Assembly: GCA_021323265.1 (NCBI GenBank)
Contig: JAJTCO010000001.1
Coordinates: 1 to 64,000, forward strand
Reading direction: 5' to 3'
DNA from: Pseudoduganella sp.
Lineage (GTDB): Bacteria; Pseudomonadota; Gammaproteobacteria; Burkholderiales; Burkholderiaceae_D
Length of the DNA stretch: 64,000 nt
Shown: in pieces, positions 57,503-64,000 of the stretch
Layout of the letters: each line of letters opens with the position of its first letter
Position numbering within the stretch: position 1 is the first letter of the stretch
Made by a program: the position numbers and the translations under genes
Notes under the pieces: generated by a model
Told to the model about the DNA's origin: nothing
Seen by the model: only the letters and a program-made list of their open reading frames with translations
Databases searched by the model: none

Positions 57503-59260
57503 CTATTGCAGGGCCTGCTGCAGGCGCTGCAGGAACTTCTCCGGCGGCTGGTAGCCGATGGTGCGCGCTTGCGCCACTTCCCGGCCGTTGGCATCGAACA
57601 TGACGATGCCGGGCGGGCCGAACAGGTTGAAGCGCTTCATCAGGGCGCGGTCGTCTTCGCTGTTGGCGGTGACGTCGGCCTGCAGCAGCTGCATGCCGCG
57701 CATCGCGGCCTGGACGCGCTCGTCGCTGAAGGTGAGGCGCTCCATCTCCTTGCAGGACACGCACCAGTCGGCGTAGAAGTCGAGCATGACGGGCTTTTGC
57801 GCGCTGGACAAGGCCCGCTCCAGCTCGGCGACGGTGCGCACGCGGGAAAAACGTGTTGCGTCCCCGTTTTCTGCGCTGGCGCTGCCGGCGCGCAGGTGGG
57901 CCAGCGGCTGCAGCACGTCGCGCCCCGAACTGGCGGCGCCGGCCAGTTCGAACAGGCCGCCCAGCAGCATCAGGACGCCGAGCGCTTTGGCGGCGTGGGC
58001 GCCGGCGCCGGCGCCTTGCGGCACCGCTTCGCCGACACGCAGGAAGGCGGCGCACAGGATGCCGAACGCGCCCCACAGCGCCATGCTGGCCGTCACCGGC
58101 AGCACGGGGCCGACCATCCAGATTGCCACGGCAATGAGCAGCAGGCCGAACACCTTCTTCACGTTGTTCATCCAGGCGCCGGCGCGCGGCAGCAGGCTGC
58201 CGGCCGAGAGACCGGTGAGCAGGAGCGGTACGCTCATGCCGCAGGCCATCGCGAACAGCGCGCCGGCGCCGACCAGGGCGTTGCCGCTCTGGCTGATGTA
58301 CAGCAGCGCGCCGGCCAGCGGGCCGGCCACGCAGGGCCCGACGATCATGGCCGATAGCGCGCCCATCGCGAAGACGGCGGCAAGGCGGCCGCCCGAGAGC
58401 CTGCCGCTGGCCGCGCTCAGCCGGGTTTGCAGCGCGCTTGGCAGCTGCAGTTGGTAGACGTCGAACATCGACAGGGCCAGCACGACCAGCAAGGCGCTGA
58501 AGGTAAGCAGGACCCAGGGCTTTTGCAAGGCGCCGGCCAGGCCTTCACCGGCCAGCCCGGCGGCCACGCCCAATGCCGTGTAGACCAGGGCCATGCCCAG
58601 GCTGTAGGCCAGGGCCAGCAGCAGGCCGCGGCGGCGCGTCACGTGCGCTTCGCCGACGATGATGGAGGACAGGATCGGCACCATCGGCAGCACGCAGGGA
58701 GTGAAGGAGAGCAGCAGGCCGAACGCCAGGAAGGCGGCGCCGATGCGCCAGGCGCTGCCGCTTTGCAGCGTGCGCTGGGCCAGCGATGTGTCATCCTCCG
58801 CAGGGGCGGGGACGGCGCTCGCTTCCGGCAGTGCGACCAGCACCCCGGGCCGCGCAGGATCGACCTGGTAGCGGCGTTCGGCCGGCGGGTAGCACAAGCC
58901 GGCGTCCGCGCAGCCCTGGTAGGCCACGCTCAGGGTGGCCGGGCCGCCTTTCCAGGGCAGGCGCAGGGCCAATGCGTCGGCATAGGTTTCCATTTCCTTG
59001 CCGAAGTTCTCGTCGTACTTGCGCGTGCCGGGCGGCAGCGGGAGCGCCAGCGCAACGCCCTCGGCGCGCAGGGTGATGCGCTCGCGGTACAGGTGGTAGC
59101 CCGGCGCGATGCTCCAGCGCACGGCAAGCTGGCCGTCGGCGCCCAGTTCGGCGTGCAGGACAAAGGCCTGCTCCGGGGCCAGGAAATCGTCGGCGCGTGC
59201 GGCGCCGGCCAGCAAGGCGCCCATGAGCGCCGCTGCCAGCCATCGTATCAAGTGCTTCAT
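57503..59260 (-). CDS. dsbD: Thiol:disulfide interchange protein DsbD
   Basis: 585 residues in the three-part DsbD layout: signal peptide and periplasmic alpha domain with Cys pair in YQGCADAGLCYPP; eight-helix membrane domain with the two reactive Cys in SFTPCVLPM and MIVGPCVAGPL; and a thioredoxin-like gamma domain with ADWCVSCKEME. All six redox cysteines are present, so it should carry electrons from cytosolic thioredoxin to the periplasm. The ATG at 59260 has CGGAG at ideal spacing. It starts two bases after the apbE stop, as the last gene of a redox locus, and could reduce the TlpA domain or the CxC lipoprotein encoded upstream. Confidence 0.95.
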   Translation of the reverse strand: MKHLIRWLAAALMGALLAGAARADDFLAPEQAFVLHAELGADGQLAVRWSIAPGYHLYRERITLRAEGVALALPLPPGTRKYDENFGKEMETYADALALRLPWKGGPATLSVAYQGCADAGLCYPPAERRYQVDPARPGVLVALPEASAVPAPAEDDTSLAQRTLQSGSAWRIGAAFLAFGLLLSFTPCVLPMVPILSSIIVGEAHVTRRRGLLLALAYSLGMALVYTALGVAAGLAGEGLAGALQKPWVLLTFSALLVVLALSMFDVYQLQLPSALQTRLSAASGRLSGGRLAAVFAMGALSAMIVGPCVAGPLAGALLYISQSGNALVGAGALFAMACGMSVPLLLTGLSAGSLLPRAGAWMNNVKKVFGLLLIAVAIWMVGPVLPVTASMALWGAFGILCAAFLRVGEAVPQGAGAGAHAAKALGVLMLLGGLFELAGAASSGRDVLQPLAHLRAGSASAENGDATRFSRVRTVAELERALSSAQKPVMLDFYADWCVSCKEMERLTFSDERVQAAMRGMQLLQADVTANSEDDRALMKRFNLFGPPGIVMFDANGREVAQARTIGYQPPEKFLQRLQQALQ

Positions 59261-59262
59261 TG

Positions 59263-60153
59263 TCATCTCCGAAAAATTTCGCCATCCTGGTTGATGGCCA
59301 GGTAGGACAGGCCGGACTGCTCGAGGAAATCCAGCCCTGCTTCCTCCATCAGCATGGCGGTCGTACTGCAACTGCCGGCCGTGATGGCCAGTGGCGCCAC
59401 CACGCTCACCGAGCGCCAGTAGGAAACCGGCATGCCGCTGCGCGCATCGAGGATGTGGCAGTAGCGCCTTCCATCGCGCTCGAAAAAGCGCTCGTAGTCG
59501 CCGCTGGTGGCCAATGCGCCGCGGCTGAATGGCACGCTGGCGGCCGCGGCGTCGGGCTGGCGCGGGTGCTGGATGCCGATGTGCCACGGCGCGCCATCCG
59601 GGCGCGGCCCGAGAAAGCGCATGTCGCCGCCCAGGTTCACGTAGCCATGCCGCACGCCCTGCGCCTCCAGCAGCTGCGCGGCGCGGTCGGCCGCGTACTC
59701 CTTGCCGAAGCCGCCGAAGTCGAGCTCCATGCCCGCGCTGGGCAGCAGCACGCTGCCGGCCTCGCGGCGCACCTGGCGCCAGCCGACCAGCGGCAACAGG
59801 CTGTCGAGCGTCTGCGCCGAAGGCACGGTGCCGAGGCGGAAGTCCCAGGCCCGGCGCAGCACGCCGGACGTGATGTCGAAGCGCCCGCCGCTGCTGCTGA
59901 ACAGGGTGTCGGCATAGTCCAGCAGGGCAGCCGTCTCCTCGTCGCAGGCGACTGCCGCGACCCCGGCGGCGGCGTTGATGCGACTCAGTACCGAGCCGGG
60001 GCGGTAGCGCGAGTATTTCGCTTCGATGCGCCGCACTTCCTGCAGCGCGGGGGCGGCCAGCGTCCGTGCTTGGGCGGCGGTGACGGCGGCCAGCCTGATC
60101 TCGCAGGGGCCGCCCATGGCCTGGAAGCCGATCGTAAACACCGGGCTTACCAC
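59263..60153 (-). CDS. apbE: ApbE-type FAD:protein FMN transferase
   Basis: 296 residues. Family motifs: FQAMGGPCEIRL near the start, YSRYRPGSVLSRIN, GGRFDITSGVLRRAW, DFGGFGKEYAADRAAQLL, YVNLGGDMRFLG and the Mg/FAD-binding HILDARSGMPV, SVVAPLAITAGSCSTTAML. It should attach FMN covalently to Ser/Thr of an extracytoplasmic target. No clear signal peptide is visible. The start is GTG at 60153, overlapping the DUF3570 gene by 7 bases. No standard ApbE target motif (DGxSGAT-like) was found in the neighbouring proteins, so its substrate here is open. Confidence 0.9.
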   Translation of the reverse strand: MVSPVFTIGFQAMGGPCEIRLAAVTAAQARTLAAPALQEVRRIEAKYSRYRPGSVLSRINAAAGVAAVACDEETAALLDYADTLFSSSGGRFDITSGVLRRAWDFRLGTVPSAQTLDSLLPLVGWRQVRREAGSVLLPSAGMELDFGGFGKEYAADRAAQLLEAQGVRHGYVNLGGDMRFLGPRPDGAPWHIGIQHPRQPDAAAASVPFSRGALATSGDYERFFERDGRRYCHILDARSGMPVSYWRSVSVVAPLAITAGSCSTTAMLMEEAGLDFLEQSGLSYLAINQDGEIFRR

Positions 60154-61292
60154 TGGCGCGCCACCCCGACCTGCAGGCTGAGCGCGCGCATCGGCGCCAG
60201 CCCCGGGCTGCCGCTGCCGAACAGGCGCCATGCGCCGCGCTGTTCGTAGCGCTCCAGCTTGACGTCCACGCTCCAGTCGCGGCTGACCTGCCGGGCCAGC
60301 TTGACGCCCAGCGTCACGCCGCCAAAGGCCGACAGGCGCTGGTCGGCGGAACTGTGCTGGCCGCTGCCGAACGCGAAGCCGGGCGGAAACGGCGGGCCCA
60401 GGCGGCTGTCGTACACCGGGTCGAAATAGAAGTGCGCCGCGCGCTGCGTGTAAAGCCGCACGGCGGGCGCCACGCTCCAGCCGTTGGCCAGGCCTTGCAC
60501 CCACTCCGCGCCCAGCGTGTGCGCGCTGACGCCGAAGCTGTCGCGGTAGAATCGGTAGCTGAGGCGGCTGGTCGCGCCCTGCGGCACGAAGCGGTGGTTC
60601 CATTGCAGCAGGGCGGTGCTCTGGCGGCGCGCGTCGGGCCGGTTGTCGGCCAGCTTGTACGGGTCGGAGTAATAGCCGTGCCCGCGGCTGTGCGTCAGCG
60701 TGAACTGCGCCACGTCGAGCGCAGCCAGGACGCGCGTCACGCCGGCCAGCACGCTGACCGTCTGCCGTCCCGCATCCTGGACGGCGCGGTTGACCGGGTC
60801 GATGCTGTCGTCGGCACCGCCCACGCCGACGTTCCACGTCGTGTTCTTGTCCTCGCTGGCCAGCGAAGCCTGCAGCGACAGGGCGCGCGAGACGTAGTCG
60901 TGCTCGGTCGAATAGGCTGCGGCCACGCTGACCGTGCCACGCGGCAGGTAGCGCGTGACGCTCACGTCGCCGGCCTTGCGCAGGTCGGACATGCGCGATG
61001 CGCCGGAAACCGCGCTGTGGTAGCGCGGCGAGGCGCCCGACACGTCGTCCACCGTGGCGCTGGCGGCCAGCGACCATTCGCCGGCAATCGGTGCCAGCAC
61101 CGAAACGGCCGGCGCGTGCACGCGGATGCGGTCCAGGCCCGGCTGGTCCTCCTTGTAATACAGGTACTTGAAGGCGACGCTGCCGCGCTCGGGAGGCGAT
61201 TCGGCATGCACCGTGCCGATCCCCGGCAGCAGCATGGCCGCCGCCAGCAAGGCCTGGCCGAGCGGTGCGCCGTTCTGTTGTTTGTTCTCCAT
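60147..61292 (-). CDS. DUF3570 outer-membrane-like protein
   Basis: 381 residues with a signal peptide to GTVHAESP. The rest is a series of amphipathic beta strands, including VAFKYLYYKEDQPGLDRIRV, the DUF3570 signature VDDVSGASPRYHSAVSGAS then DLRKAGDVSVTRYLP, and a terminal LSLQVGVARQW with an aromatic last residue as in barrels inserted by BAM. Family function is unknown. GAGGAAC lies before the ATG at 61292. It sits between the DUF4266 lipoprotein gene (11-base gap) and apbE (overlap). Confidence 0.85.
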   Translation of the reverse strand: MENKQQNGAPLGQALLAAAMLLPGIGTVHAESPPERGSVAFKYLYYKEDQPGLDRIRVHAPAVSVLAPIAGEWSLAASATVDDVSGASPRYHSAVSGASRMSDLRKAGDVSVTRYLPRGTVSVAAAYSTEHDYVSRALSLQASLASEDKNTTWNVGVGGADDSIDPVNRAVQDAGRQTVSVLAGVTRVLAALDVAQFTLTHSRGHGYYSDPYKLADNRPDARRQSTALLQWNHRFVPQGATSRLSYRFYRDSFGVSAHTLGAEWVQGLANGWSVAPAVRLYTQRAAHFYFDPVYDSRLGPPFPPGFAFGSGQHSSADQRLSAFGGVTLGVKLARQVSRDWSVDVKLERYEQRGAWRLFGSGSPGLAPMRALSLQVGVARQW

Positions 61293-61303
61293 GCTGTTCC
61301 TCG

Positions 61304-61531
61304 TCAATTGCAGCCGCAGCCGCCGCCGCCCACGGCGCTGCCGCCGGATGCCGCTTCCTTGCTGGCGTAGATGTGTTCATTGAAGCGCGTCTCGAGGCCG
61401 TCGCCCTGCAGCAGCATGTCGGCGCGCGCCAGCTCCCCCTTTTCCCACGGCTTGACGGAAGGCAGGGCGCAGCCGGCCAGCGCGGCGGCCAGGACGGTCA
61501 ATGCCGCGGCCCGCAGCAGGCGCGCGCTCAT
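61304..61531 (-). CDS. DUF4266 mini-lipoprotein with C-terminal CxC tail
   Basis: 75 residues. The signal ends in the lipobox LAAALAGC, giving a mature 56-residue lipoprotein. The middle VKPWEKGELARADMLLQGDG and RFNEHIYASKEAASGGS are the DUF4266 signature, and the protein ends GGGGCGCN, a Gly-rich tail with a CxC pair. The ATG overlaps the stop of the TlpA-containing gene by 4 bases. Family function is unknown. Its tail could be a thiol redox partner of DsbD/TlpA, or the SGGS stretch a flavin acceptor for ApbE; both are inferences from neighbours. Confidence 0.85.
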   Translation of the reverse strand: MSARLLRAAALTVLAAALAGCALPSVKPWEKGELARADMLLQGDGLETRFNEHIYASKEAASGGSAVGGGGCGCN

Positions 61532-64000
61532 TGCCGTGCTCCCAGCGCGGACTTGATGCGCGCTTCCAGGAGCGTGCGGTCGGCCGGCCGGAAGCCGCTG
61601 TGCTCATACAGGACCTTGCCGTCCGGGCCAATCAGCACGCTGCTTGGCATGCCCTTGATGCCGTAGTTGCGCGGCGCGGTGCCGCTGGGGTCGAAGGCGA
61701 TCACGAAACTGGCCGGCGTGGCGTTCAGGAAGCTGCGCGCATCGTCGGTCCTGGCATCGACGTTGATGCCGACCACCTGCAAGCCCTGGGCGCCGTAGCG
61801 CGCCTGCATTTCGTTCATCCACGGGAAGGATTGGCGGCAGGGGCCGCACCACGATGCCCAGAAGTCCACGTACACCAGCTTGCCCTGGTAATGCTCCAGC
61901 TTCACGGTGCCGCCCGGACCGGCCAGCGTGAAGGAGGGCGCCGGCTTGCCCGCTTCCAGCGCCATGGCCTGGCCGGCCAGGGCCAGCGCCGCGGCGGCGG
62001 CCAGCAGGCGCGCCTGGCGGCGGCGCCACAGCAGCACGGCGGCCGCCAGCACGGCGAGGACCGCCAGCATGGGGTCGTTGCCGCCGCCGAGCGAGGAGCA
62101 GCCGCCACCGCCGCGGTTCTGCGCGCTGCCGGCCGGGGCGGGCGCGGCCGTTGCCTGGCCGCTCAGCGCGACCTGCCAGCTGGCGCCGGTGGCCTGCAGG
62201 GTTGCCGTGCCGCTGGCGTTGCCCGCTGCGCTCGGCGCAAAGCGCACTGGCAGCTCGCACGCTGCGCCGGCGGGCAGCGTCAGCGGGAAGGCGCCGCAGG
62301 CATTGCTTTCGCCGCTGGCCAGCGCGAACGGACCGCTAAAGGCCACGCTGTTCAGCACCAGCGCGGCGGCGCCGCTATTGGTCAGCGTGAAGCGCTTGAC
62401 GATGCCCGCGCCGCCGGCCGTGGTGCTGCCGTAGTCGAAAGCCTGGGGCGAGACGGCAAGCGCGGGTGCGCTGGACGGCACGGCGCTGGCGTTGCCGCCC
62501 AGGCGCACGGCAAATTGCGCGCCGCCATCGGTCAGCAACACGAGGTCGGCGTTGCGCGCCCCGGCGGCGGTCGGCTTGAAGGCCGCGTCGATGGTGCAGG
62601 CGCCGCCCGGGCTGAGGGTGGTGTTGGCGGCGCAGCTGCCGGCCAGCGTGAAGTCGCCCGGGTGGTTGCCGCCCAGGACCAGCGACGCAATCTTCAGCGC
62701 CGCCGTGCCGCCATTGGACAGCGTGTTGCGGTGCGCGGCCGATTGCTGGCCAACGGCGGTATCGGCAAAGCTCACCGGGCCGTTGTCGCTGAGGACGGGG
62801 CGCGCCACCGCGGCCGCCGTGCCGGAGCCGGTGATGGCAACGGCCAGGTCGGGGGCGTTGGAGCGCACCAGCAGGGTGGCGCTGACGTCGCCCGCCGCCA
62901 GCGGGGCGAACGCGAGCGGCACGCTGCAGCTGGCGCCGACGGCGAGCGTGCTGCCGCAGTTGCCGCCGTTGATGGTGATGGCGCTGGCGCCGCTGACGGC
63001 GATGCTGCTCAAGGCCAGCGCGACGTTGCCCCGGTTGTTCAGCGTGACTTGTTGCGTGACCGGCGCTGCCCCCACGGTCTGGGTGCCGAAGGCGAGCGCG
63101 CTCGGGCTGGCGCCGATGGCCGGCGCCGGGGCGCTGGCGTTGCCCGAGAGTGCGACCGCCACATTGGCGTTGCTGGCGTTCGATGCCAGGTTCAGGCTGG
63201 CCGCGAAGGCGCCCGCCGCGGCGGGCTGCGCCTGCACCAGCACGGTGCAGCTGGCGCCGGGTGCGAGCGGCGCCGCCGGCGCGCAGGTGCCGCCCAGCGT
63301 GAACGTGCCCGCCTGCGCGCCCGACAGGGCGATGGCAGAGAAGGTCAGCGCCGCCTGGCCACTATTGGACACGGTCAGCGTGCGCTGGGTGGGGGCGTTG
63401 GTCAGCACGGCGCCGAAATCGAGCGCGCTGGCCGACAGGGCCAGCGTGGCCTGGGCCACGGCATTGCCGGTGCCCGACAGGGCGACGCTGCTGGCGCCGC
63501 CGGTGGCGTTGTGGCTGACCGACAGCGCGGCGCTGCGCGCGCCGGCGGCCGTGGGCCGGAACACCAGCTGCACGGTGCAGCTGGCGCCCGCCGCCAGGGA
63601 CGTGCCGGCGGCGCAGTTGCCGCCGCTGATGCGGAAGTCGGCGGCGTGGCTGCCGCCCACGGCGATGCTGCCGACATTGAGCGGCGCCGAACCGCTGTTG
63701 GAGAGCGTGGTGGCGAGGGCGGCGCTGTCCTGGCCGACCGTGGCGCCGCCGAACGACAGCGCGGCCGGCGCGACGGCCGCCGCCGGCGCCGCCGTCACAT
63801 TGGGGTTGCCAATGAAGGCTGCCAGGTCCGCAATCTCGGCGCTGGTGAACTTGCCGTTGTAGAGCGTGCCCATGCCGCCGCGGTTGGCGGCGAAGGCGGC
63901 GCTGATCACGGACGGATTGTCGGCGGCGGCCAGGATGCCGTTGACGTTGGTCGCGGGCGAGGGGCCGTGGCAGGCCGCGCAGGCCGTGCCGCCGGCGACC
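61528..64000 (-). CDS. Cytochrome c - choice-of-anchor D repeats - membrane tail - TlpA thioredoxin protein (N-terminus outside window)
   Basis: The frame is open from the right edge to 61528 (823 residues visible). In order: a cytochrome c haem motif CAACH (63967-63981) with GGMGTLYNGKF and IADLAAFIGNP; five repeats of about 105 residues of the choice-of-anchor D/HYDIN type, each with a Cys pair of the form GNC...GASCTV; a Gly-rich tail GGGGCSSLGGGNDP, a hydrophobic helix and WRRRQAR, like a CTERM surface-sorting signal; then at once a second hydrophobic stretch and a TlpA-like thioredoxin domain with WASWCGPC (WCGPC at 61837-61851). The last part could be a separate gene starting near 62070. 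Haem plus thiol chemistry in one surface protein is unusual. Confidence 0.78.
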   Translation of the reverse strand, partial: VAGGTACAACHGPSPATNVNGILAAADNPSVISAAFAANRGGMGTLYNGKFTSAEIADLAAFIGNPNVTAAPAAAVAPAALSFGGATVGQDSAALATTLSNSGSAPLNVGSIAVGGSHAADFRISGGNCAAGTSLAAGASCTVQLVFRPTAAGARSAALSVSHNATGGASSVALSGTGNAVAQATLALSASALDFGAVLTNAPTQRTLTVSNSGQAALTFSAIALSGAQAGTFTLGGTCAPAAPLAPGASCTVLVQAQPAAAGAFAASLNLASNASNANVAVALSGNASAPAPAIGASPSALAFGTQTVGAAPVTQQVTLNNRGNVALALSSIAVSGASAITINGGNCGSTLAVGASCSVPLAFAPLAAGDVSATLLVRSNAPDLAVAITGSGTAAAVARPVLSDNGPVSFADTAVGQQSAAHRNTLSNGGTAALKIASLVLGGNHPGDFTLAGSCAANTTLSPGGACTIDAAFKPTAAGARNADLVLLTDGGAQFAVRLGGNASAVPSSAPALAVSPQAFDYGSTTAGGAGIVKRFTLTNSGAAALVLNSVAFSGPFALASGESNACGAFPLTLPAGAACELPVRFAPSAAGNASGTATLQATGASWQVALSGQATAAPAPAGSAQNRGGGGCSSLGGGNDPMLAVLAVLAAAVLLWRRRQARLLAAAAALALAGQAMALEAGKPAPSFTLAGPGGTVKLEHYQGKLVYVDFWASWCGPCRQSFPWMNEMQARYGAQGLQVVGINVDARTDDARSFLNATPASFVIAFDPSGTAPRNYGIKGMPSSVLIGPDGKVLYEHSGFRPADRTLLEARIKSALGARQ

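Follow-up and report, generated by a model that had tools for sequence, protein, structure and literature searches.

A cytochrome c-TlpA fusion with a JDVT-CTERM sorting tail heads a DsbD-type flavinylation operon in Pseudoduganella sp., a candidate outward electron chain

The stretch of Pseudoduganella sp. DNA analyzed in this work, 64,000 nucleotides long and hereafter called the window, ends with five closely packed minus-strand genes. The first of them continues past the window end on contig C69, where it is preceded by the gene for MrtJ. The features of the locus are listed below.

61528..64000, continuing to contig C69:64110, minus strand: fused gene for cytochrome c, repeats, JDVT-CTERM and TlpA, read as one open frame (860 aa, counted from the ATG)
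63967..63981, minus strand: haem motif CAACH (sequence motif)
62014..62115, minus strand: JDVT-CTERM sorting tail, i.e., GGGGC, a transmembrane stretch and RRR (NF033191, 44.8 and 51.2 bits, cut-off 27)
61528..62010, minus strand: TlpA/ResA-like thioredoxin part, after a second signal-peptide-like hydrophobic stretch (Redoxin PF08534, 87.4 bits)
61837..61851, minus strand: TlpA active site WCGPC (sequence motif)
61304..61531, minus strand: DUF4266 mini-lipoprotein with the lipobox LAGC (PF14086, 75.4 bits)
61310..61318, minus strand: CGC tail of DUF4266, a redox candidate (sequence motif)
60147..61292, minus strand: DUF3570, probably an FMN-carrying beta-barrel of the outer membrane (PF12094, 208.4 bits)
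61029..61040, minus strand: first ApbE target motif SGAS of DUF3570 (sequence motif)
60996..61007, minus strand: second ApbE target motif SGAS of DUF3570 (sequence motif)
59263..60153, minus strand: ApbE flavin transferase, without room for an N-terminal signal peptide (PF02424, 261.5 bits)
57503..59260, minus strand: DsbD, an extra copy in the genome (NF001419, 589 bits; DsbD_TM PF02683, 305 bits)
Contig C69:64133-64573, outside the window: MrtJ, a 146-aa CPBP protein (NCBIfam NF033192, 79.2 bits, cut-off 75)

The TlpA and DUF4266 frames overlap by 4 bases, and an 11-base gap separates DUF4266 from the ATG of DUF3570 at 61292. DUF3570 and ApbE, which starts with GTG at 60153, overlap by 7 bases, and DsbD begins 2 bases after ApbE at the ATG in position 59260, or with a 4-base overlap if the alternative ATG at 59266 is used. 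On re-reading, the coordinates, strand, gaps and overlaps given for this unit in the earlier note all held, and the motifs it had listed, namely CAACH, WCGPC, a CGCN tail directly before the stop codon and the DsbD cysteines, were present. The five-gene set was thus as described but incomplete, since its first gene runs 110 bases beyond the window end and the description included neither the JDVT-CTERM tail, nor MrtJ, nor the fusion of the cytochrome with TlpA.

The product of the first gene starts with a signal peptide (assigned by eye), followed by a cytochrome c domain with the CAACH motif, choice-of-anchor-D repeats (NCBIfam choice_anch_D, 311.7 bits), the JDVT-CTERM tail and, in the same frame, TlpA. 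The cytochrome part contains 13 Cys residues, i.e., the two of the haem motif, five spaced pairs and one in the JDVT tail, and with its single CxxCH it lacks the multihaem feature of MtrCAB-type conduits. The JDVT-CTERM match (51.2 bits, against a cut-off of 27) is the only one in the whole genome, which is 83% complete. MrtJ, the protease with which JDVT-CTERM tails are paired, is encoded 22 nt upstream of the fused gene and is also Rce1-like (55.8 bits). The TlpA part matches PF08534/PF00578 and, more weakly, PF00085, and PF13899 was not among the listed matches of a Pfam search.

Relatives of the locus were found by DUF3570, and the 80 best-scoring of the 306 retrieved, mostly from Burkholderiales and several of them ending at contig ends, are referred to as the named loci. 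HMMs of the locus genes were built first from 9 seed loci and then rebuilt on the 80 loci. Upstream counts refer to the 65 named loci with at least 4.5 kb of upstream sequence and downstream counts to the 71 with 3 kb. In addition, samples of 145 genomes of the family and 398 genomes of the phylum were analyzed; genome samples and named loci overlap, as G040, G072, G089, G104, G111, G120 and G138 coincide with named loci.

The gene order was seen again in dozens of species, beyond chance, and the initial proposal that the genes form one redox operon is supported. TlpA is present in all of the named loci (best 80 of 306) and an intact DUF4266 in 79 of them. Upstream, 56 of 65 loci (of the best 80 of 306) encode a JDVT tail, 54 MrtJ and 54 both, counts that were unchanged at a 20-bit threshold, and a cytochrome c profile match lies within 5 kb ahead of DUF3570 in 58 of these 65 loci. 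Downstream, ApbE is present in 66 of 71 loci (of the best 80 of 306) and DsbD follows DUF3570 in 61. The recurring order is MrtJ, cytochrome c/JDVT, TlpA, DUF4266, DUF3570, in most cases ApbE, and DsbD. In the family sample, 8 of 11 JDVT-CTERM loci, the window included, belong to a complete module, and families of the module and JDVT-CTERM co-occur across genomes (8/11 versus 19/134; Fisher p = 6e-5, relatedness ignored). The other three loci (L023, L028 and L030) have a different JDVT protein and, but for one distant TlpA-like hit in L030, no match to a module gene. That protein is a secreted one with GFADR or GFQDR near its N terminus, and a CPBP-like gene lies alongside, classified as MrtJ by NCBIfam only in L028. 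Outside the family, a locus from another family of the same order, L060, unites the JDVT cytochrome, TlpA, DUF4266, DUF3570 and ApbE, and nearby on the opposite strand there are DsbD and a weak MrtJ-like match.

The JDVT tail and TlpA are in one frame in the window, in L060 and in 16 of the 80 named loci (best 80 of 306). Because of this recurrence we rejected the possibility that the fusion is an assembly or sequencing error. On the best DUF3570 tree the fusion maps to three places, two of them firm and the third probable: the firm ones are a clade of Duganella, Janthinobacterium and Undibacterium and a group of Roseateles and Mitsuaria, and the third is L060, whose long branch arises from a fork without support. 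Between the JDVT helix with its arginines and TlpA, the printed fused rows have a second hydrophobic stretch, which in most of them ends in an A-x-A-like site (by eye) and whose predicted topology fits an internal signal peptide. In the JDVT cytochrome domains of L135, L140, L149 and L152, the CxxCH motif is replaced by longer, haem-like C-x3-CH or C-x4-CH motifs.

In the phylum sample, DUF3570 was found in 29 of 398 genomes and DUF4266, above its cut-off, in the same 29, with one further DUF4266 match below the cut-off; DUF3570 is thus a constant partner of DUF4266, as had been proposed. The linkage of DUF4266 to other genes of the operon was borne out in part. TlpA is a near-constant neighbor (80 of 80 named loci, best 80 of 306, and 28 of 30 wide loci, all 30 of which encode DUF4266), but in the wide loci ApbE lies within 2 kb in only 20 and DsbD is present in 5. 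None of the 30 wide loci has a JDVT cytochrome or tail. Conversely, JDVT-CTERM occurs in 34 of the 398 genomes, and of 20 JDVT regions examined L060 is the sole one with the module; two distant TlpA-like matches were found in L075 and a weak MrtJ-like one in L069. As the wide loci lack JDVT and a single JDVT region of 20 has the module, the core is TlpA-DUF4266-DUF3570, to which Burkholderiales and close relatives have, in the loci seen here, added the JDVT cytochrome. The flavin-thiol core can indeed exist without the JDVT cytochrome, as seen in the wide clusters and in a second, shorter TlpA-DUF4266-DUF3570-ApbE cluster on contig C145 of the same genome (L010), around which no match to the JDVT cytochrome, MrtJ or DsbD was found within 17.5 kb. 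A raw association between JDVT and DsbD (53/55 versus 3/10 of loci among the best 80 of 306; Fisher p = 6e-6) was dropped as functional evidence of a joint gain, as it was not significant on the tree with independent pairs (4 pairs).

Together with ApbE and DsbD, this core is ordinary and was already published in 2021. The available text of Meheust 2021 (PMC8238504) describes "DsbD" flavinylation clusters composed of ApbE, DUF3570, a thioredoxin-like protein, DUF4266 with a CXC tail and DsbD, and reports that DUF3570 of C. luteolum carries FMN covalently attached by ApbE at two [S/T]GA[S/T] sites. These components and motifs are shared by the window. In contrast, the JDVT-CTERM cytochrome, MrtJ, the cytochrome-TlpA fusion and a leaderless ApbE are present only here, as far as the available parts of that paper extend, and the thioredoxin there is of the PF13899 type, whereas that of the window is of the Redoxin/AhpC-TSA type. 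The thioredoxin reductase TrxB found in some named loci is likewise without mention in those parts. In the available text of a later flavinylation paper (PMC12052999), DUF3570 is not mentioned.

The alignment of DUF4266 tails suggested in the earlier note showed that 109 of 110 rows end in CGC and a single further residue, which supports the proposed role of the lipoprotein as a candidate thiol carrier; a similar suggestion is found in Meheust 2021 (PMC8238504, available text). The exception, at L147:9893-11047 of Massilia cavernae, is a decayed locus where all that remains of DUF4266 is an N-terminal scrap, joined to DUF3570 and devoid of the CGC tail. The lipobox pattern matched in 96 of 110 rows; by eye, a well-placed Cys was also seen in several of the rows that it missed. 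The alternative role proposed for DUF4266, flavinylation at SGGS, was rejected on motif conservation and on the published substrate. The canonical [ST]GA[ST] motif is absent from the last 50 aa of all 109 copies, [ST]GG[ST] is present in the tail of 26 of 79 named copies (best 80 of 306 loci) and of none of 30 wide copies, and the ApbE substrate identified in the available text of PMC8238504 is DUF3570.

The DUF3570 protein of the window has two SGAS sites and its gene adjoins that of ApbE. Two SGA[ST] motifs were found in 73 of the 80 named loci (best 80 of 306) and one in the other 7. In the 30 wide loci, SGA[ST] is associated with the proximity of ApbE, being present in 19 of 20 loci with ApbE within 2 kb versus 4 of 10 without (Fisher p = 0.002, relatedness ignored); one of the latter, L204, stops at a contig end, and the one ApbE-linked locus devoid of SGA[ST], L192, has TGSS. 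DUF3570 is probably an outer-membrane beta-barrel. A C-terminal W or F (79 of 80 named loci, best 80 of 306), the absence of Cys (76 of 80) and a modest beta periodicity are consistent with this prediction, short of proof; the z score of the beta moment is 2.7, compared with 2.0 for TlpA, a soluble control, 0.3 for ApbE, -0.7 for DsbD and -1.2 for MrtJ. A sequence search of the PDB up to an E value of 10 returned no solved-structure relative of DUF3570.

In 62 of 74 loci (among the best 80 of 306), no more than 36 nt separate the DUF3570 stop codon from the start of the ApbE domain. In the other 12, where the distance is 44 to 174 nt, the intervening stretch is not strongly hydrophobic. The ApbE next to DUF3570 therefore seems to be leaderless, and because of this DUF3570 may receive its FMN in the cytosol, before export. 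That a leaderless ApbE is a specialty of the module was not established, as translation of the corresponding stretches showed that the two other ApbE proteins of the genome are also devoid of a clear leader.

The DsbD of the operon is not the only one in the genome, with other DsbD_TM matches on contigs C83, C40, C59 and, weaker, C97. In 21 of the 80 named loci (best 80 of 306), TrxB directly follows DsbD, its match starting about 20 to 78 nt past the end of the DsbD match; the operon of the window is without TrxB. That a quarter of the named loci encode TrxB as part of the operon argues for an NADPH-driven, reductive direction of electron flow.

We propose, tentatively and with a little less than even confidence, that the products of the operon move electrons outward, from NADPH in the cytosol to a surface haem protein; this most economical reading is built on gene content, motifs, order, conservation and fusion. 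Electrons would pass from NADPH to TrxB and, possibly by way of thioredoxin, to DsbD, which would carry them over the inner membrane to the thiol pair of TlpA. TlpA would reduce the CGC tail of DUF4266, and this lipoprotein would act as a flexible swinging arm that in turn reduces the two FMNs attached by ApbE to the putative DUF3570 barrel. Chemically, flavins are the natural link between thiols, which react by two electrons, and haem, which takes one. The FMNs of DUF3570 would take up electron pairs from the thiols and pass them on singly to the mono-haem cytochrome c, which would be anchored outside by virtue of the cleavage of its JDVT-CTERM tail by MrtJ. In the window species, the cytochrome and TlpA would be made as one chain and separated by MrtJ and signal peptidase. 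The terminal acceptor would perhaps be ferric iron or another extracellular oxidant. The complete picture, a flavin-based outer-membrane conduit leading from NADPH through thiols, a CGC arm and a two-FMN barrel to a myxosortase-anchored surface haem, with a cytochrome-thioredoxin chain split by two membrane proteases, appears to us possible yet rather unlikely.

Alternatively, DsbD and TlpA might form a local maturation pair that keeps the CxxCH thiols reduced for haem attachment or repairs the five spaced Cys pairs of the repeats, the flavin pathway being separate. We consider this improbable. It would agree with the ResA/DsbE-type assignment of TlpA by NCBIfam, at scores below the cut-offs of those models, with the fusion of TlpA to the cytochrome in the window, L060 and 16 of 80 named loci (best 80 of 306), and with the 13 Cys residues (2 haem, 5 pairs, 1 JDVT) of the cytochrome part. 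However, TlpA stays with DUF4266 and DUF3570 where there is no JDVT cytochrome, both in the C145 copy and in 28 of 30 wide loci.

An equally low probability is assigned to a chain ending at DUF3570, which would reduce a metal or another oxidant for assimilation, with the JDVT cytochrome as a Burkholderiales accessory, e.g., a haem sensor-containing protein for binding or adhesion. In line with such an endpoint, no CxxCH ORF lies on the same strand within about 7 kb in 19 of the 20 wide loci that have ApbE at up to 2 kb, and the remaining one, L211, has a CxxCH ORF of 190 aa. A cupredoxin is encoded near one of these loci (L188), and 25 clusters with a VIT1 iron transporter are reported in the available text of Meheust 2021 (PMC8238504). 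The named loci argue otherwise, given the cytochrome c match ahead of DUF3570 in 58 of 65 (of the best 80 of 306). Moreover, among the 9 of those 65 that lack JDVT, a CxxCH protein is still encoded ahead of TlpA in L115, L133 and L158, and in L127 one is found on the opposite strand. A reverse, oxidative use of the chain, with electrons of a surface substrate flowing inward to the thiols, is very improbable: flavin-thiol-haem chains are reversible in principle, but the TrxB gene directly after DsbD in 21 of 80 loci (best 80 of 306) suggests an NADPH-driven reductive source.

The proposed outward chain would share with MtrCAB-type systems the logic of moving electrons over the outer membrane to a surface cytochrome. 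MtrCAB is a porin-cytochrome conduit with multihaem chains, whereas a single haem, FMN and thiols are proposed here. If true, electrons would move through the outer membrane by way of flavin and thiols, with no need for multihaem chains. The DUF4266 tail recalls that of Erv2, a flexible CGC shuttle between a thiol protein and a flavin. The two are compared by function, not homology, and unlike the Erv2 tail DUF4266 is a separate lipoprotein and would work in the opposite direction.

As regards the surface tag, earlier work cited in the available text of PMC11980579 described a conserved neighborhood that consists of just two genes, those for MrtJ and for a JDVT-CTERM protein; the same source shows cleavage of MYXO-CTERM by the related MrtX. 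The present locus shares this adjacency, but here the pair stands at the head of a flavin-thiol operon, its JDVT member being a cytochrome c-TlpA fusion. We found no report joining DsbD-type flavinylation with JDVT/MrtJ in the available texts, those of PMC8238504, PMC11980579, PMC12052999 and PMC11334425 included. The operon head, the fusion, the surface tag and the linkage of the two gene sets are not described in the literature that was searchable. An orphan surface-sorting pair thereby becomes tied to a process, and for the flavin/DUF3570 system both a haem partner at the end of the chain and a source of electrons in the cytosol become plausible. The system is carried by named strains of Duganella, Massilia and Janthinobacterium.

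Additional genes were observed around the operon and its relatives. Homologs of an ECF sigma factor, a zinc-finger anti-sigma factor and a subtilase, identified by Pfam on L021 and L009, are present in 28, 27 and 27 of the 80 named loci (best 80 of 306), respectively. The sigma factor match is on the opposite strand in 26 of 28 cases, and 24 of those loci have MrtJ. Located beside MrtJ, e.g., in L080-L096, these proteins are possible regulators. Lastly, a second class of TlpA-DUF4266-DUF3570 clusters (L205, L206, L210 and L212-L217) has no ApbE within 2 kb, and SGA[ST] is missing from DUF3570 in 6 of the 9. All nine encode a protein of about 900 to 1000 aa with at least two CxxCH motifs, similar to that of L205, which matches HZS_alpha in a Pfam run on L205 only. 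SH3 and outer-membrane-type proteins are also encoded in these clusters and, in 8 of 9, a 168-aa protein and a TPR protein.
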